Origin: Helicobacteraceae bacterium
Lineage (GTDB): Bacteria > Campylobacterota > Campylobacteria > Campylobacterales > Sulfurimonadaceae
DNA: 14,972 bases
NCBI GenBank assembly: GCA_030596305.1
Contig: JAUVKK010000003.1
Coordinates: 1 to 14,972, forward strand
Reading direction: 5' to 3'
A program made the position numbers and the translations under genes. The notes beneath the pieces were generated by a model. That model ran no database searches. It had not been told where the DNA came from and worked only from the letters and a program-made list of their open reading frames with translations. Below are positions 2,432 to 14,972 of this stretch, one piece after another. Position 1 is the stretch's first letter, and each line of letters begins with the position of its first letter.

Positions 2432-4678
2432 ATGAAGCTGCATCGACGATATAGCACCATGACGACCTTCTTTATTCTCTTTACTCTCTTCGTCACTATT
2501 GCCACTTCCGTACTTGTCTGGACAACATGGATCGAGACCAAAGAGAGGGCCGTGCTGGAACTGGAATACATCAACAAGACGGTCTCTAACTCCTACGCCT
2601 CCGACCTGCAGCAGAATGAGACACTTCTGGGACTCTTGGGTGCTCACCTCTTGGAAAATGACATTCTCAACCATCCTGAACGCATACAACAACTCATCCG
2701 ACACCCGCTCGAGACCAATCCAAGTCTTGCCGGATTTGGGATCGCACGCAAGGATGGACAACTGGTATCTGTCTCCTACATACCGAAAAACTATACCCTT
2801 CCAAATCTGCTCAAAGATGAAAAAAGCCGCGACACCTTCAAAAAAGCCCTCAAATATAAAAAAATGGTCATCGGACGCACCTACTATATGGGGATCTTGG
2901 ATAAATGGATAATCCCTCTGCGCACCCCGATCTTAGATAAAAATGGTGACATTGCCTTTGTCTTGACTACAGGTATCGATCTTTCGCTCCAGAAAAGTTC
3001 ATGGAATGCCAAAGGCTTTCCGGAACATATCGGCGTGGCTATCGTTCGTGATGACAACTATTTCACCTATGTCTCTGACGTTGAAGAAAATGAGATGCAA
3101 GAGTGGTATTACAACCCTGTTCCACAAAACTCTCTTAGTCAAATAGACACAATCAACATCCGTTTTCCCGGTATTCACATCTTTGACCTTATAAACCGTG
3201 ACCAGAAAAAGATCTTAGTCCTCTCAGAGTATAACCGGCAGTTCAACTACATTAGTGTGACCAGAGTGACCTATGAGAAGCTCTATTACGACCTCTATGA
3301 GCAGCTCAACTACTTTATACTCGGTATCACTCTCTTTTACCTCTTTACCCTTCTCTTTTACATCATCAACCATCGACGCGATCAACAGCGGACAAGCGAA
3401 CTTGTCTGGTCGGCAAACCATGATATCCTGACAAAACTGCCTAATCGATACTTTTTACAGCAAAAGACAGAACAGTGGAACAAGCTCCATCAACAATACA
3501 GTGCACTTTTTATGGACCTCAATAACTTTAAATCCATCAATGACAATTATGGACACCCCTTTGGAGACAAGCTCCTGGTGATCATTGCAGAGCGTCTTAA
3601 CGCAATCGTTCAAGAGCATGAATATGTCATCAGACAGGGCGGAGATGAGTTTATTGCCCTTACCCCCAGACCCTATAGTGAGATCCCTCAGTTTGCACAG
3701 CATATCATCCATGTCCTAAGTGAAGTCGTTACGATCGACAACATCACCCTGCATCCTCAGATCACCATAGGTATTGCACATTTCCCTCAAGACGCTGACA
3801 ACATCGACCTGCTGCTCAGTAAAGCAGACATGGCTCTCTATAAAGCGAAAGAGAACAAACTTGGTTTTCTTGCGTACTCTTTTACCTTGGAGGAGGCCTC
3901 AAAAAGACGTCTGGACATAGAGATGCGACTGCGAACAGCAGTTGAAAATGATGAATACTACGTACTTCTGCAGCCTCAGATGAATGCCCTGACACTGGAG
4001 GTAGAGGGTGTCGAAGCGCTCATACGATGGGAGAGCCCTGAACTTGGCTTCATACCGCCTGACCAATTCATCTCCATAGCAGAAGAGGTCGGGGAGATAT
4101 CTCGTATCGGTCGATTTGTGTTGCGACGTGCCTGTGAGATGGCCGTTGCGGTCTGGAAAGAGACAGATATACGGTTTACACTCTCTGTCAACACCTCAGC
4201 AGACGAGTTACTGCATGATGATTATCTTGACCAGATCCTGATGATCTTGCATGAGACAGACTTTCCAAAAGAGATGCTCATCGTCGAAATAACAGAGAGT
4301 CTCTTGATCAACGATGTACGTCGGGCAAAACAGGTCTTAAACGATCTGCGAAGTGAAGGCATTGGTGTCTCTTTGGATGACTTTGGTACCGGCTACTCCT
4401 CTTTGAGCATGCTCAAAGGTCTTCCTGTCACCGAACTAAAGATCGACCAGAGCTTTATCAAAGATTTCCTTGTTGACAAACAGGACCTCATGCTGACCAA
4501 GTCCATCATCGCACTCTCAGAGCTCTTTGATCTTAAAACAGTCGCAGAGGGCGTCGAAGAGGAAGGACACGTCTTTGAACTGCAAAATGCAGGCTGTACC
4601 ATACTCCAGGGCTTCTATTTCTCAAAACCGCTAACACAGCCAGAATTAGTACAATTTATAAATGAGTTGGATGAGTGA
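2432..4678 (+). CDS. Membrane-bound c-di-GMP cyclase/phosphodiesterase (periplasmic sensor, GGDEF, EAL)
   Basis: A 748-residue protein. Order of parts: short cytoplasmic N-terminus; transmembrane helix about residues 11-30; periplasmic region about 31-285 with the size and feel of a double-Cache sensor; second transmembrane helix about 293-312; GGDEF domain about 325-480; EAL domain about 495-745. The cyclase signature GGDEF (403-407) is intact. The usual RxxD inhibitory site five residues before it is replaced by Q-E-H-E, so product feedback through that site looks lost. In the phosphodiesterase half, EAL (528-530), 'VEITES' (E619/E622), 'LDDFGTG' (D649/D650), the Lys of 'LKIDQSF', 'VAEGVE' and 'LQGFYFSKPL' are all present, so hydrolysis looks competent. 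It may be bifunctional, with an unknown periplasmic signal setting the balance. It is a stand-alone gene that converges on a tRNA. Confidence 0.93.
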   Translation: MKLHRRYSTMTTFFILFTLFVTIATSVLVWTTWIETKERAVLELEYINKTVSNSYASDLQQNETLLGLLGAHLLENDILNHPERIQQLIRHPLETNPSLAGFGIARKDGQLVSVSYIPKNYTLPNLLKDEKSRDTFKKALKYKKMVIGRTYYMGILDKWIIPLRTPILDKNGDIAFVLTTGIDLSLQKSSWNAKGFPEHIGVAIVRDDNYFTYVSDVEENEMQEWYYNPVPQNSLSQIDTINIRFPGIHIFDLINRDQKKILVLSEYNRQFNYISVTRVTYEKLYYDLYEQLNYFILGITLFYLFTLLFYIINHRRDQQRTSELVWSANHDILTKLPNRYFLQQKTEQWNKLHQQYSALFMDLNNFKSINDNYGHPFGDKLLVIIAERLNAIVQEHEYVIRQGGDEFIALTPRPYSEIPQFAQHIIHVLSEVVTIDNITLHPQITIGIAHFPQDADNIDLLLSKADMALYKAKENKLGFLAYSFTLEEASKRRLDIEMRLRTAVENDEYYVLLQPQMNALTLEVEGVEALIRWESPELGFIPPDQFISIAEEVGEISRIGRFVLRRACEMAVAVWKETDIRFTLSVNTSADELLHDDYLDQILMILHETDFPKEMLIVEITESLLINDVRRAKQVLNDLRSEGIGVSLDDFGTGYSSLSMLKGLPVTELKIDQSFIKDFLVDKQDLMLTKSIIALSELFDLKTVAEGVEEEGHVFELQNAGCTILQGFYFSKPLTQPELVQFINELDE

Positions 4679-10031: not shown

Positions 10032-10830
10032 AAACCATCTCTCTCTTATCATCGCCCTTTTTACCATCGTCTTTACCATGCAGATCTATATTGTCGTTGA
10101 TCGAACAGTTAAGGCATATGAATATGACCTCAACGAAAATTACAGTATTGTCGTTGTCACTCAAAAGAAGGTTGATACAGACACTCTTGTTGCCATGAGT
10201 CCCAAGATCAAAAGTGCTGATGAGATCTCTACCAAAGAGGTGATCAGCAATCTTCAGTCACAGATGAAACAGCGTCACATCGACCTGCTGAAGCTTTCAC
10301 TCCCACACTTCTACTCTTTACACCTTACTCATTACCCTGCACCACATGAGGTAAAGGAGCTGCGTAAAAGACTGGAAAAGAACAGTCACATCACACGTAT
10401 CGAAGACTTCGCACAAAGTCATGATACGCTGTATAAACTGCTACTTCTTTTTAAATCTGTCATTGTCCTCTTTGCTATCGCAATATTTGCAGTCACTTCG
10501 CTGCTGATAATTAAAGAGATGCGTATCTGGCAGTTCCAGCATAATGAGCGTATGAGTATCATGGCGATGTTCGGTGCACCGGTGTGGATGCGTTCAGCCG
10601 TACTGTTTAGAGTCTCTATTGTCGATGCTGTCATCGCTTCTGTGTTGGCCATCGGGACCATTACCTATGCAGACTTTATGAAAGTCGGCAATGAACAGTT
10701 ACAGTCTATCGGTATCGAGGTACTGCTGTTTGACCCGATCAATGACAGTCTTTTAATTGTGGGTGTCGCCTTAAGTCTCTCTATCATCCTTGCTACACTG
10801 ATTGTCATCGGTCATAAAGAAGAGGTCTGA
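10018..10830 (+). CDS. ftsX: FtsX, membrane subunit of the FtsEX divisome complex
   Basis: A 270-residue membrane protein with the FtsX layout: transmembrane helix 1 at about 7-28; a periplasmic domain of about 110 residues; then helices near 138-162, 187-212 and 244-265 with the cytoplasmic loop that contacts FtsE between helices 2 and 3 ('MRIWQFQHNERMSIMAMFGA'). The 'MAMFGAPVWMR' segment is the usual 'm..lGA....R' coupling region. The first 14 bases overlap ftsE, and the stop TGA shares one base with the ATG of the EnvC-like gene. FtsX would pass the FtsE ATP cycle to the periplasmic coiled-coil partner encoded next. Sequence divergence from E. coli FtsX is large, so the name relies on topology and context. 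Confidence 0.9.
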   Translation: MKSVKNHLSLIIALFTIVFTMQIYIVVDRTVKAYEYDLNENYSIVVVTQKKVDTDTLVAMSPKIKSADEISTKEVISNLQSQMKQRHIDLLKLSLPHFYSLHLTHYPAPHEVKELRKRLEKNSHITRIEDFAQSHDTLYKLLLLFKSVIVLFAIAIFAVTSLLIIKEMRIWQFQHNERMSIMAMFGAPVWMRSAVLFRVSIVDAVIASVLAIGTITYADFMKVGNEQLQSIGIEVLLFDPINDSLLIVGVALSLSIILATLIVIGHKEEV

Positions 10831-12029
10831 TGCGCGCACTTTTACTCTCTCTTCTTCTTATTGTCTCTACAGTAGCCGCGAAACAAGACGTTACTAAACA
10901 GATAAAAAAGACCAACAAAGAGATCAAAAGCTTTGACAAAAAGTACTCCAGTCTCCATAAAAAGATGTCCAAAACAGCCAAGGCGATTAAAAAGTCTGAA
11001 AAAGAGCTGGTTCGACAAGAGAAAGAGATCACAGAACTTAGTAAAAAATTGGGAAATTCGCAAGAGAGATATCAAGCCAACCAAAAAGAGCTGCTGGTAC
11101 TTAAAGACAAGCAGCTGCTGCTGCATGGCAAACAGGGACTCATAGAAAAAGAGCTTATCCAATCGATTGCACGCAACATCTCTATCAACTCTTTAGTCAA
11201 AGACAAACATGCTGTCACAACAGAATCAATTATCACTGAAGAGATACTAAACGAACTTAATCTCCAGACCCAGCGCAAGATAGAACGGTTAGAGCAAGAG
11301 CACAACTCTAACGCCAAGACGATAAAAAGTTATCAGACTCGCACGGACAGACTCCAGGCCAACATCAGCAATATTGATAAAGAGAAGATCAAACTGCTAA
11401 AAGTGACTAAAAACAATAAAAAATCTATTACCAAGATGCAAAAAGACCGAAAAAAGTATAAAAAGTCCATCAATAAACTGCTTGCACAAAAAAAGGCTCT
11501 AAGCAGTACACTTGCGAGACTCAACATCATTAAGTCAGAAGAGAAAAAACAGACAAAACAGACAAAGAGAAGCAGAACCAAAACAAATACTACGGCCAAA
11601 GTAACCAAAAAAGGCTCAAGCTATCAGAGTGTAAAGTCAAAAAGATATCGCGGCAAAAAGACCATTGCACCACTTTCAGGTTATAGAGTGGTCAAAAAGT
11701 TCGGTCCCTATACTGATCCTATCTACAAAATCAAGATCTACAACGAGTCTGTCTCTCTTCAGCCAAATCAGCGTAACGCTAAGGTCAAGACCGTTCTAAA
11801 CGGTAAAGTCATCCTGGCTAAAAAGACACAGCTTCTTGACAACGTCGTCATCGTAAAACACTCAAACGGTCTTCATACCATCTATGCCCACCTGGATCAG
11901 ATCGCCCCTACCGTTAAAAAGGGCAAAAAAGTCAAAAAAGGCTCTACAATTGGTCGTGTAGACCATGAGCTTACCTTTGAAGTGACGCAGGATAGTTATC
12001 ATATTGATCCAATGACGTTGATAAAGTAG
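10830..12029 (+). CDS. EnvC-like murein hydrolase activator (coiled coil plus degenerate LytM/M23)
   Basis: A 399-residue secreted protein. A signal peptide (about 1-17, ending 'STVAA') is followed by a long Lys/Glu-rich coiled coil (about 20-250), a basic linker (about 240-275) and a C-terminal LytM/M23 domain (about 280-399). In active M23 enzymes the first zinc ligands form H-x3-D; here the site reads N305-E-S-V-S309. The later HxH before 'FEV' reads E380-L-T382. Only the His of 'YAHLD' (H354) is kept. The domain should therefore not bind zinc or cut peptidoglycan by itself, as in EnvC, which activates amidases under FtsEX control. Its start overlaps the ftsX stop by one base, which supports direct functional linkage. 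The amidase partner is not in this window. Confidence 0.85.
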   Translation: MRALLLSLLLIVSTVAAKQDVTKQIKKTNKEIKSFDKKYSSLHKKMSKTAKAIKKSEKELVRQEKEITELSKKLGNSQERYQANQKELLVLKDKQLLLHGKQGLIEKELIQSIARNISINSLVKDKHAVTTESIITEEILNELNLQTQRKIERLEQEHNSNAKTIKSYQTRTDRLQANISNIDKEKIKLLKVTKNNKKSITKMQKDRKKYKKSINKLLAQKKALSSTLARLNIIKSEEKKQTKQTKRSRTKTNTTAKVTKKGSSYQSVKSKRYRGKKTIAPLSGYRVVKKFGPYTDPIYKIKIYNESVSLQPNQRNAKVKTVLNGKVILAKKTQLLDNVVIVKHSNGLHTIYAHLDQIAPTVKKGKKVKKGSTIGRVDHELTFEVTQDSYHIDPMTLIK

Positions 12030-12047
12030 ATACTCTATCAACATCTA

Positions 12048-12082
12048 TCTTCACACATTTTCTGCTCTTATTTGTGAGAAGA
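12048..12082 (+). terminator. Imperfect hairpin just after the ftsEX operon, possible terminator
   Basis: TCTTCACACA (12048-12057) pairs with TGTGAGAAGA (12073-12082) with one A-A mismatch across a 15-base loop, 19 bases after the EnvC-like stop. No T-run follows, so it is a weak candidate for an intrinsic terminator; it might instead protect the mRNA end. Confidence 0.3.
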
Positions 12083-12097
12083 CCGTTTAAATACACC

Positions 12098-12126
12098 TTG
12101 TCTTAAAACAACTTACTTAAGAACAA
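12098..12126. repeat. Imperfect inverted repeat in the leader of the NIT-like gene cluster
   Basis: TTGTCTTAA (12098-12106) and TTAAGAACAA (12117-12126) are complementary apart from one extra base, separated by 10 bases. It lies about 160 bp upstream of the first NIT-like gene in an otherwise featureless AT-rich 257-bp gap (12030-12286). It could be an operator, but no regulator family is recognised. Confidence 0.25.
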
Positions 12127-12286
12127 TTCACTATACAATACTGCCACTATTTTGAGTTAAGACATTTAAACTGACAATAAATATTAATATAAATGAGTAT
12201 ACATTTTAAGCTGTTATTTATTATTTTTCATCAATAATAGTTATATCTTAATATCAAGTAACGCTTATCAACCAAAAGGATAACTT

Positions 12287-13108
12287 ATGAAAAAAATTGT
12301 AATGTTGCTATTAATGCTGGTAGTCACTGCATCTGCTGTTTCAGATGCCAAAAAAGTACGCTACCTCGATACTGTTAAAGACCTTATTGTCGCAACGCAA
12401 AAGACACGTGGCGGTACCTATAACTTTTTAAATGGAAGTGAGTTTGCACAGTTTGGTGTATTTGACCAACGCTCAAAGATCAAAGCTTCATTTAAGGCAC
12501 TAAACCGACAATTTAAAGTGGTAGGTCCAAAAATAGACGGTGAGTTTGACAAACTGTATAAGCAGATGAAAAGTCTTAACAAACTGGCATTTCAACTTGA
12601 TCCATTAACATCGTTCAAAGCATACAGTTCACTTATCAATAAGATGATCATATTGGGAGGTAAAGCACAAGTAGAACTTTATGGAGATGGCAACAAGTTT
12701 GAGAAGAGAGCAAGTGATGTGATGATGAACCAGATCATGCGATTGACAGAAGGGCTTGGTAAACTACGCGGTTTGGGTTCTGGTATTGCCGCGCGTGGTG
12801 AATGTGAAGATGAAGAGGTCGAGTATATGGAGGGCTATGTTGATGAAGTAAATAAAAACATGCAAAAAGTCATTGCTTCAATGAGCGCTCTAAGTAAAGA
12901 ATATGACGACAAATATCCTGCAGGTTTGAGTAAAAAACTCTCAAAATATAAAAAAGGTGTTCTCTCATATGTTAAGCTGGCCGAGACAAAATTGATCGAA
13001 AAAGATAATATACAGGTCGATTCAAATCAATACTTTAAACAAGGTACAGACCTAATTGGCGGTGCGATCAAGTTTTATAAAATGAACTCAAAAGCACTTA
13101 AAGACTAA
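12287..13108 (+). CDS. Secreted stand-alone NIT-like (nitrate/nitrite-sensing) protein, copy 1
   Basis: A 273-residue, mostly helical protein with a signal peptide (1-17, cleavage after A15-S16-A17) and no other membrane segment. It resembles the NIT sensor domain (PF08376). The N-terminal half has 'LIVATQKTRGGTYNFL' (Q38, R41, G42), then 'FDQRSKIKASFKAL' and 'TSFKAYSSLINKMI'. The second half has a matching helix 'LTEGLGKLRGLGSGIAA' (R161, G162). NIT domains normally sit in chemoreceptors, histidine kinases or NasR with an output module; none is present here. One Cys occurs, C173. The gene has an AAAAGGATAAC ribosome binding site, is followed 18 bp later by a MORN-repeat gene, and has a paralogue at 13668-14504. 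A role as a periplasmic ligand-binding partner of some membrane receptor is inference; the ligand is unknown. Confidence 0.7.
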   Translation: MKKIVMLLLMLVVTASAVSDAKKVRYLDTVKDLIVATQKTRGGTYNFLNGSEFAQFGVFDQRSKIKASFKALNRQFKVVGPKIDGEFDKLYKQMKSLNKLAFQLDPLTSFKAYSSLINKMIILGGKAQVELYGDGNKFEKRASDVMMNQIMRLTEGLGKLRGLGSGIAARGECEDEEVEYMEGYVDEVNKNMQKVIASMSALSKEYDDKYPAGLSKKLSKYKKGVLSYVKLAETKLIEKDNIQVDSNQYFKQGTDLIGGAIKFYKMNSKALKD

Positions 13109-13126
13109 TCAATAAAAGGATAATGT

Positions 13127-13510
13127 ATGCGATTTTTATTGATCATGACAATGCTGATGAGTATCACTCTTTTTGCAGAGATACAGAAAAAAAGCTACTC
13201 AAGTGGCGAGTTGAAGTCTGAGACCAACTACACCTCTGGTAAAAAGAGCGGTATCTCTAAAGGGTATTACAAAAACGGTAAGACAAAATATGAGGCACAG
13301 TACAAAAACAATAAGCGTGAAGGCCTCACAAAGTCCTATTATAAAACGGGGATATTAAAAGCAGAAGAGAACTATAAAGATGGTTCACTAAACGGTATAT
13401 CAAAAAAATACTATAAAAGCGGGAAACTCAAATCAGACTTTAATTTTGAAAGCGATCTGCCGGTCAGTGGTTCAAAGTACACTGAAGATGGTAAAAAGGC
13501 AGATAGTTAA
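13127..13510 (+). CDS. Small secreted MORN_2-repeat protein
   Basis: A 127-residue protein with a signal peptide (about 1-17, 'ITLFA' then EIQ) followed by four consecutive repeats of exactly 24 residues (21-44, 45-68, 69-92, 93-116) and an 11-residue tail. The repeat consensus is K-x-Y-Y-K-x-G-x-L-K-x-E-x-x-Y-K-x-x-x-x-x-G-x-S/T, typical of MORN_2 (PF07661). The last copy has drifted (Phe for Tyr, Pro inserted). Such proteins are often labelled 'YwqK family antitoxin' in databases, but no toxin gene is adjacent and the signal peptide argues against that role. It starts 18 bp after the first NIT-like gene with a similar AAAAGGATAA ribosome binding site, so the two look co-transcribed. MORN_2 strands commonly form extended beta surfaces; the partner here is unknown. 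Confidence 0.8.
   Translation: MRFLLIMTMLMSITLFAEIQKKSYSSGELKSETNYTSGKKSGISKGYYKNGKTKYEAQYKNNKREGLTKSYYKTGILKAEENYKDGSLNGISKKYYKSGKLKSDFNFESDLPVSGSKYTEDGKKADS
13187..13474 (+). repeat. Four tandem 72-bp units encoding MORN_2 repeats
   Basis: The units begin at 13187, 13259, 13331 and 13403. They are regular in length with no indels. At the DNA level they have diverged (for example tattacaaaaac, tattataaaacg, tactataaaagc), so this is an old protein repeat rather than a recent slippage array. Confidence 0.75.
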
Positions 13511-13584
13511 TATCTTTTTATCTCACGAAGTGTTGACCTATAGACTAACGTTCAAAAGTATTGTCATCTTTCTATAAAGTAAAC

Positions 13585-13613
13585 CATTTAAACTCAGAAT
13601 TAGGTACTATAAT
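13585..13613 (+). promoter_or_regulatory. Probable promoter for the second NIT-like gene
   Basis: A perfect TATAAT at 13608-13613 lies 54 bp before the ATG at 13668. The -35 area is poor (CATTTA at 13585-13590, 17-bp spacer). The block CATTTAAACT here (13585-13594) also occurs at 12163-12172 upstream of the first NIT-like gene. The rest of the 157-bp gap (13511-13667) is AT-rich with no other clear signal. Confidence 0.5.
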
Positions 13614-13667
13614 AACAAGAGAACTAAAGTATAGACCAATAACTCAAAAGAATTTAAAAGGTGTAGC

Positions 13668-14504
13668 ATGAGAAAAATCATATTACTACTAATAACGGCA
13701 GTTTTTTCACTCTCAGCAACATCGTTGGATGATAAAGTAGCCTATTTGGATAATGTTAAAGAGTTGATCATCATGACACAAAAGATGCGTGGTGACACAA
13801 ATGTCTACGTTAAAGGCGGTGAAATTGTTCTCTCTGAGATTGAGGACGATCGTGACAATGTAGCAACATCATTAAGAGACCTGCGTCACAAGTTTAAAAC
13901 AGTCGATATCAAGACGAACGACGAATTCGACAAACTTCACCGTTATATGCAAAGTTTAAATGAAGTAGCGTCAGAACTTGATACTATGACAACATTTAGA
14001 GCCTACAGTCTGTTGATCAATGAGATGTTAAAGATCGGTGTGCAGGTTCAAGAGAACTTTTTTGTTGATGGCAGTGAACGACAGAAAAGAGTCAGTGCTG
14101 TAATGATGAAAGATGTTTTACCTATGACAGAGCACATAGGAAGATTACGTGGACTCGGGGCTGGAATGGCTGCATGTGGTCAGTGTAATAATGATGAGTA
14201 TAGCTACACAAAAGAGTACTTTGTTGATGTTGCTGATACTCTCGATGAATTAGTAGCCGCTATGAAAACGTTAAATGCCTCTTATCCAAACAGCTACCCG
14301 AAGAACTTGGATCAGCAATTAAAAAAATATCAAACTGATGTTAAAAATTATATAGGGATTATTGAGACTAAACTCTCTAATGCTGAACTTGGAGAGATTG
14401 AGAGTATTAAACTTGATGCATATGACTTTTTTAGTCATGGGAGCAGTCTTATCGATCATACGTTGAGCTTTTATGAGATGAATAAAATACTTTTAAACGA
14501 TTAG
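13668..14504 (+). CDS. Secreted stand-alone NIT-like (nitrate/nitrite-sensing) protein, copy 2
   Basis: A 278-residue paralogue of the protein at 12287-13108, alignable without gaps through residue 173. It has a signal peptide (about 1-17, 'FSLSA'), no further membrane helix and no output domain. Conserved landmarks fall at identical positions: Y26-L27-D28, Q38-K39, R41-G42, 'DEFDKL', 'FRAYSLLINEML', R161-G162 and C173. The notable difference is C170: residues 170-173 read C-G-Q-C, a CxxC pair, where copy 1 has R-G-E-C. After this the helices are more diverged but share 'SYP..L...L.KY..DV..Y' and a final 'FF.....LI...LSFYEMN' segment. It has its own promoter and a GGTG ribosome binding site region, and is followed by a hairpin. 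Ligand, partner and the role of the CxxC are unknown. Confidence 0.7.
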   Translation: MRKIILLLITAVFSLSATSLDDKVAYLDNVKELIIMTQKMRGDTNVYVKGGEIVLSEIEDDRDNVATSLRDLRHKFKTVDIKTNDEFDKLHRYMQSLNEVASELDTMTTFRAYSLLINEMLKIGVQVQENFFVDGSERQKRVSAVMMKDVLPMTEHIGRLRGLGAGMAACGQCNNDEYSYTKEYFVDVADTLDELVAAMKTLNASYPNSYPKNLDQQLKKYQTDVKNYIGIIETKLSNAELGEIESIKLDAYDFFSHGSSLIDHTLSFYEMNKILLND

Positions 14505-14514
14505 TCTCTATCCG

Positions 14515-14535
14515 TAAAGGGAAGATCACCCTTTA
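14515..14535. terminator. Hairpin between the NIT-like gene and the convergent MATE gene
   Basis: TAAAGGG (14515-14521) pairs perfectly with CCCTTTA (14529-14535) around the 7-base loop AAGATCA, with a possible extra G-U pair. It begins 11 bases after the NIT-like stop and lies 42 bases beyond the MATE stop in the other direction. No long T-run follows on either strand, so bidirectional termination is likely by position more than by form. Confidence 0.5.
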
Positions 14536-14576
14536 TAAACACACTTATACTTTCGAGAACATGCCAGATAGATCTC

Positions 14577-14972
14577 TCATACCACCATCTTTTGCCATTT
14601 ACGTTGTTTGAAAATAAACCAGAAAATGGCTCCTTTTACAAATGTCTCTATCGTCATTGCAATAAATATCCAAATCAGTTCAAATCCATAATAGTATAAA
14701 AGCAGTGAAGGGATCACTCGAAGCAGCCACAGAGAAGAGACATTGACCTTCAGTGTTGTTTTAGTCGCCCCTGCCCCTCGTAGTGCTCCATTGATGACAA
14801 AGGTCATCGCCAGTGGTACCTGAGAGATACCAACAAGCTGCAGGTAGATCGATGCTGCGTCTATCGTTACCGCATCCTGCGTAAAAAAGCCGATAAAAAA
14901 TGCTGGGAAAAGCGCCAATAAGATACCAAGTAAGCCCATAAAAGTAGCGGCTATTTTAATCGCATACAGTCC
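14577..14972 (-). CDS. MATE-family efflux transporter, C-terminal fragment
   Basis: The reading frame is open to the right edge; 131 codons before the TGA at 14579-14577 are visible and no credible start lies inside the window. Hydrophobic helices alternate with short loops. The region 'LQLVGISQVPLAMTFVINGA' followed by 'LRGAGATKTTLKVN' matches the conserved 'galrGaGdt......n' of the second half of MATE (multidrug and toxin extrusion) transporters. The protein ends in a basic tail 'KQRKWQKMVV'. MATE proteins export cationic drugs or metabolites using H+ or Na+ gradients. The gene converges on the NIT-like cluster and shares no obvious operon with it. Confidence 0.85.
   Translation of the reverse strand, partial: GLYAIKIAATFMGLLGILLALFPAFFIGFFTQDAVTIDAASIYLQLVGISQVPLAMTFVINGALRGAGATKTTLKVNVSSLWLLRVIPSLLLYYYGFELIWIFIAMTIETFVKGAIFWFIFKQRKWQKMVV

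Follow-up and report, generated by a model that had tools for sequence, protein, structure and literature searches.

How can a sensory domain report on its ligand, when the protein that carries it has neither a membrane anchor nor an output module? This question is raised by three adjacent genes of a Helicobacteraceae bacterium from the family Sulfurimonadaceae (assembly GCA_030596305.1). In the literature, NIT domains appear as nitrate sensors that form part of receptors. Here, the stretch of DNA analysed (the window) is contig JAUVKK010000003.1 (G000:C262; 14,972 nucleotides), part of a genome of 293 contigs that is 56.6% complete. The last full genes of this contig are a plus-strand trio encoding a NIT-domain protein (NIT1), a protein of MORN repeats (MORN) and a second NIT-like protein (NIT2), followed by the end of a minus-strand MatE gene. 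The cassette is real, conserved and unusual in its layout, and represents a variant of a known sensory domain. We tentatively favor a soluble periplasmic receptor, which would signal by contact with a separate envelope protein and would use MORN as docking partner; this is held as possible rather than probable. The three open reading frames lie where the original prediction, made from the letters of the window, had placed them:

12287..13108, plus strand: NIT1, predicted secreted freestanding NIT-domain protein of 273 amino acids; signal peptide at about residues 1-17; pocket motifs Q38-x-x-R41 and G158-x-x-R161; Cys173
13127..13510, plus strand: MORN, predicted secreted protein of 127 amino acids with MORN_2 repeats; mature pI 9.5
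13668..14504, plus strand: NIT2, predicted secreted paralogue of NIT1 with 278 amino acids; acidic, mature pI 4.9; C170-x-x-C173; both pocket motifs kept

Fold, putative anion pocket and predicted export

NIT1 matches the NIT family PF08376 with an E-value of 6.3e-7 and 30.4 bits, above the cut-off of 24.9 bits, and NIT2 is 40% identical to it across the full length. Among the relatives, both NIT proteins of genome G033 pass the cut-off (NIT1 28.0 and NIT2 26.3 bits) and NIT1 of genome G052 lies below it (24.4 bits). In a fold comparison, the eight-helix NIT fold of NasR (PDB 4AKK), the NIT-ANTAR antiterminator of Klebsiella oxytoca, spans the whole mature NIT1. Family match, identity and fold thus bear out the two NIT-like paralogues of the original prediction, and a lack of structural similarity to NIT, named beforehand as what would refute the idea, was not what emerged.

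The anion site of NasR offers a closer comparison. Nitrate-binding G-x-x-R motifs have been described, and NasR holds both arginines, but a glutamine replaces one glycine, so that the site is asymmetric (accessible part of PMC8199190). On helix 5 of NasR, E175 and R176 are predicted pocket residues, according to the available excerpt of PMC7496416; by our own count from these two residues, the numbering of the 4akk chain is offset by 27, which makes the helix-1 arginine R50. In the alignment, Q-C-E-R of NasR falls on Q38-K-T-R41 of NIT1 and G-Q-E-R on G158-K-L-R161, which we read as placing the glutamine half-site on helix 1. All four residues, Q38, R41, G158 and R161, are present in 89 of 91 aligned rows (these include the two NIT proteins of the window, and some rows are near-identical), the exceptions being NIT1 of G052 (A158) and a solo NIT protein of G001 (A38). 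Each of the four positions is also held in 67/67 further relatives. Judged by these residues, the site of the cassette proteins is NasR-like.

NIT1 of G052 (L066:2031-2852) is the sole cassette NIT1 without G158, and its genome, which is 99% complete, has no match over the cut-off to NapA of the periplasmic nitrate reductase. As a single case, this co-occurrence proves nothing.

MORN matches PF07661 (MORN_2; cut-off 29.6 bits) with 54.3 bits and an E-value of 4.9e-15 in three passing stretches, and no other Pfam family was found in it; the middle protein consists of MORN_2 repeats only, as had been proposed. In NCBIfam it has sub-cut-off matches only, the best to an LIC20035-type adhesin (29.4 bits against a cut-off of 250). 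Its structure model displays nine beta strands, and the orthologues of G003 and G033 are 85% and 71% identical to the window copy. No output domain reaches its cut-off in any cassette protein, neither in Pfam nor in NCBIfam, which agrees with the claimed absence of a kinase, chemoreceptor or RNA-binding module.

All three proteins are predicted to be exported. The sole strongly hydrophobic stretch of each is N-terminal, and the highest Kyte-Doolittle 19-residue mean past residue 23 is 0.78 in NIT1, -0.57 in MORN and 0.80 in NIT2. Since the first cysteine stands at position 173 in NIT1 and 170 in NIT2 and is absent from MORN, none of them has a lipoprotein signal. Position 17, where the signal peptide should end, holds Ala in 77 of the 91 NIT rows, as expected for cleavage by signal peptidase I. 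The postulated signal peptide without a transmembrane anchor is hence supported, as judged from sequence features alone.

Conservation and insertion sites

Searching 228 genomes of the family with NIT1 gave some match (E <= 0.001) in 72 of them, and close orthologues (at least 245 bits) in seven only: G000 (the genome of the window), G003, G033, G013, G018, G019 and G052. At all seven loci a MORN gene stands 3' of NIT1, on the same strand and at most 34 bases away. A search of the same genomes with MORN gave matches in 83 of them (E <= 1e-5), since MORN_2 proteins are common; the seven best (at least 108.8 bits) are exactly those adjoining NIT1, and the next, with 94.1 bits, belongs to G110, for which the NIT1 search gave no match. 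Only the orthologue group of the cassette is tied to NIT1, and the family has further short MORN_2 proteins at other places. Short MORN_2 proteins of genus g14 (L073-L076), for example, lie near groEL or a conserved membrane-protein gene (names assigned by eye), without NIT.

NIT2 follows 3' of MORN in G000, G033, G013 and G019, with the last two copies cut by contig ends; G052 lacks it, and so do the 854 bases that remain at G018. Leaving out G003, whose contig stops inside MORN, NIT2 is missing in two of six readable loci. The constant core is therefore NIT1-MORN, and NIT2 is optional. Of the trio that the original prediction expected to be kept together, NIT1 and MORN are joined in every locus and NIT2 is not; the opposite outcome, three genes that are not kept together in relatives, did not come true. 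In the window, 18 bases separate NIT1 from MORN and 157 bases MORN from NIT2. In three relatives the latter two genes are 2 bases apart, 12 bases apart and overlapping by 4 bases, which gives the trio the look of a single operon in those genomes. The tree built from the 91 rows places NIT1 (25 core rows), NIT2 (26 rows) and the solo NIT proteins in separate clades; NIT2 of G033 groups with NIT2 at 99/97, with a long-branch warning given by the tool. No NIT-MORN fusion, that is, no protein with PF07661, was found among the 120 listed of 619 profile hits, in a search that admitted proteins of up to 1.75 times the query length and thus made a short fusion eligible.

In the family, freestanding NIT proteins with predicted secretion are frequent also where MORN is lacking. 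Among the listed rows of the NIT1 search, eight lie in long frames (364-963 amino acids) and five in short ones (149-214 amino acids, some of them contig-cut); the remaining rows have frames of about 270-312 amino acids and are freestanding NIT proteins. Among the names they bear in public records is 'nitrate- and nitrite sensing domain-containing protein [Sulfurimonas]'. One solo NIT protein of 283 amino acids (P0091) is named methyl-accepting chemotaxis protein in one source, for which it seems far too short. A survey of 44 solo loci, which reduce to 38 distinct places after six repeats and have flanks of mostly only 1.5 kb, gave no MORN-gene match beside a solo NIT. At 18 of the 38 places trpS and argF stand on the two sides (L014, L018, L042-L044, L047-L051 and others); this type occurs mostly in genus g2, which is probably Sulfurimonas. 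At six places (L015, L016, L017, L019, L033, L055) the solo gene lies between moaC and mobA (neighbour names of both types were checked on one locus each). These are molybdenum cofactor genes, and nitrate reductase uses this cofactor, which hints towards nitrate for that subgroup. In the phylum as a whole, 259 of 397 genomes have a NIT match; among the best matches listed, a list biased to canonical NIT, all but two are in frames of at least 600 amino acids.

The seven cassettes occupy five chromosomal sites. For the last four of these sites a single gene apiece was checked, and so were ruvX and mnmE, each on one occasion; the other genes were named by eye:

After EnvC: G000 and G003
Adjoining ruvX-mnmE: G033 and G018
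Adjoining nuo genes: G013
About 3.5 kb past an ammonium-transporter gene: G019
2 kb before guaB: G052

The surroundings of the cassette in the window are as follows:

10830..12029, plus strand: EnvC-like M23 peptidase; it borders the insertion site on the left and lies outside the cassette
12030..12286: A+T-rich gap from EnvC to NIT1 (GC 0.257), presumed to contain the promoter of the cassette
13511..13667: gap of 157 bases between MORN and NIT2
14577..14972, minus strand: MatE transporter, right border of the insertion site, outside the cassette; cut by the contig end

The genus is represented by eight genomes, with the cassette in G000 and G003. In all five cassette-free genomes that are readable at this place (G002, G004, G005, G006 and G007), EnvC and MatE are convergent and 0-215 bases apart, without an insert, MatE being confirmed by Pfam in G007 only; the contig of G001 stops 308 bases past EnvC. 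The cassette was inserted as a block. Its GC content is lower than that of the chosen flanking stretch, with 0.37-0.38 against 0.44 in the window and 0.32-0.40 against 0.37-0.44 in the six relatives, part of which may be explained by lysine-rich composition. No integrase was recognised at the cassette borders in the window, and the repeats detected in 11900-14700 amounted to three weak direct families of two copies each, with no inverted pair and no clear border repeats. No sign of a viral origin was found: viral contigs contained 18 pattern matches, not one of which encoded a relative, and PHROGs gave no match for the three proteins.

A sigma-70 scan gave no plus-strand site in the gap 12030..12286. 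Across 12000-14700, five promoter sites were found against 10.3 in shuffled sequences, and no terminator against 1.0; an Rfam search of the window returned no family at gathering scores. A similar stretch of 21 bases (81% identical) occurs in the gaps 5' of NIT1 (12158-12178) and of NIT2 (13580-13600), and is perhaps a shared control site, or due to chance. Further upstream, the window encodes a nitrite/sulfite reductase-like protein on the minus strand (497-2224; best named model ferredoxin-nitrite reductase with 213.6 bits, far under the cut-off of 594) and a GGDEF and EAL domain protein (2432-4678) with a dCache match under its cut-off.

Proposed signalling by contact and its rivals

Starting from the fold, the pocket motif, the export signals, the operon-like linkage and the block insertion, all of which were computed, we infer a ligand, a complex and a membrane partner. 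The cassette would form a soluble sensory assembly in the periplasm. Here, NIT1 and NIT2 would be exported NIT receptors, which hold a small oxyanion, most likely nitrate or nitrite, between the helix-1 Q-x-x-R and the helix-5 G-x-x-R in the way NasR does. Having no transmembrane helix of their own, they would relay the state of the pocket by contact to another envelope protein, in a manner modelled on binding-protein-dependent receptors. For MORN, encoded directly after NIT1 in every locus, a role in docking or as a scaffold would be likely, and the acidic NIT2 would be either a modulator or another subunit with a specificity of its own. A hand-over of the signal to a separate membrane receptor, as suggested originally, is a plausible hypothesis. 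Of the original prediction, the NIT fold, the predicted export, the lack of an output domain and the conservation of the group are supported, and the NasR-type pocket motif is kept.

Among known systems, NasR has the same eight-helix fold and Q-x-x-R / G-x-x-R nitrate-site motif, but it carries an RNA-binding ANTAR domain, in contrast to the cassette proteins with their export signals and no output domain. Likewise, the NIT receptors among the PF08376 architectures are one-chain proteins with fused output modules, and the cassette NIT proteins have neither a transmembrane anchor nor such a module. The genome of the window also contains fused NIT proteins: a NIT-HisKA-HATPase kinase (L002) and a NIT protein with SBP_bac_3 (L001), both by Pfam, and one with GGDEF/EAL-like sequence, recognised by eye (L003). 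MORN resembles other MORN_2 proteins (PF07661) in having only these repeats after a signal-like N-terminus. The proposed mode of action resembles that of binding-protein-dependent receptors and of DbfQ, a soluble periplasmic protein that modulates the separate membrane sensor kinase DbfS (accessible text of PMC12714742). In that text DbfQ is encoded beside its two-component genes, unlike the cassette, beside which no sensor gene was recognised. The open-access literature searched contained no NIT protein in a DbfQ-like role, no freestanding exported NIT protein and no NIT-MORN pairing, in line with the original prediction, which knew of no such layout among described systems.

Several observations weigh against the proposed soluble receptor. 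NIT2 reaches 23.0 bits with PF08376, just below the cut-off. The likeness to NasR surfaced by fold comparison only; NasR was not among the hits of a sequence-profile search of the PDB, which returned 28 rows of unrelated chains, mostly long helices and coiled coils, with a best E-value of 0.0021. The glutamates beside the NasR arginines are not kept, and are T40 and L160 in NIT1. PA4520 has a NIT domain that did not bind nitrate or nitrite (part of PMC6381276 accessible), so that a pocket motif is no proof of a ligand. NIT1-MORN also occurs in G052, where no NapA match exceeds the cut-off. Beside the cassette, no gene for a receptor, kinase or chemoreceptor was recognised, upstream in 7/7 and downstream in the 4/7 readable loci, in a scan made mostly by eye, and a partner may be encoded at a distance; the window's neighbours are the known genes EnvC and MatE, and the relatives have no receptor upstream (6/6) or downstream (3/6 readable). 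Finally, NIT1 and MORN are in the same frame and were read as one chain, with TAA as Gly, and folded together with three relatives read likewise and unpaired rows. Both halves fold well, and the pTM of 0.75 gives no clear sign that they touch.

Two rival explanations stand out, namely a role as scaffold and one as nitrate carrier for Nap. Scaffolding is a known function of MORN repeats. It is conceivable, if rather unlikely, that NIT1, NIT2 and MORN form a non-sensory structural or surface complex of the envelope, in which the conserved arginines serve folding or assembly. NIT2 has a charge opposite to that of NIT1 and MORN, which suits such a complex, and the PA4520 domain is a NIT without nitrate binding in what is accessible of PMC6381276; the NasR anion-site motif in 89/91 rows, however, seems beyond the needs of scaffolding. 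In a periplasmic carrier, the NIT proteins would bind nitrate or nitrite and deliver or buffer it for Nap respiration without signalling. NapA over the cut-off (930.55) in three of the seven cassette genomes, long partial matches in G000 (818 bits) and G003 (427 bits) and the solo group between moaC and mobA point that way, but described NIT domains are parts of receptors and no nap gene was recognised, by eye, beside the cassette in the readable stretches. Moreover, G052 (99% complete, best match 99 bits) and G018 (65% complete, 81 bits) have NIT1-MORN without NapA over the cut-off, and matches of this size also occur in 11 of the 14 ring control genomes. We regard the carrier as distinctly unlikely. 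A general tie of NIT1-MORN to the periplasmic nitrate reductase did not hold up, as only 3/7 genomes have NapA over the cut-off.

Two further explanations have far less in their favor. A mobile cargo that acts in conflicts, as in immunity or toxin neutralisation, would suit the five chromosomal sites and the GC content below the chosen flank in all seven cassettes, and the YwqK-type name given to some MORN_2 proteins would presumably hint at it. Yet no viral-contig relative, PHROG match, border integrase or clear border repeat was found in the searches described above, and the single PADLOC assignment is AbiC for NIT2 (E 5.3e-4, 17.6 bits, no passing stretch). We consider this role very improbable. 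That the genes are degenerate leftovers of a NIT receptor is hardly credible: the absence of an output domain over its cut-off would follow from a lost output part, but frames are intact, N-termini and gene order are conserved across five genera, and the 25 core rows of NIT1 and the 26 rows of NIT2 each fall into a clade of their own.

Returning to the soluble receptor, the charge of its proposed subunits would fit a complex. The mature proteins are basic in 25/25 core rows of NIT1 and 7/7 of MORN and acidic in 24/26 of NIT2, where one of the two basic rows, however, is a cassette copy, the cut one of G013. Cys173 is kept in 24/25 core NIT1 rows, C170 and C173 each in 22/26 NIT2 rows, and the loop behind the pocket helix is the place of both the NIT1 cysteine and the NIT2 C-x-x-C. 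Speculatively, these may link the subunits or add redox control. A more specific arrangement, which we consider doubtful, would be a periplasmic NIT1/NIT2 heterodimer docked by MORN as an interchangeable sensor cartridge for a separate receptor.

The Sulfurimonas group, to which the carriers of the cassette are related, is known for nitrate respiration with sulfur compounds. Here, the cassette points to a sensory link via protein contact in the periplasm. Furthermore, NIT proteins with predicted export and without a receptor part would provide small soluble proteins, with which the disputed ligand of the NIT domain may be measured directly.
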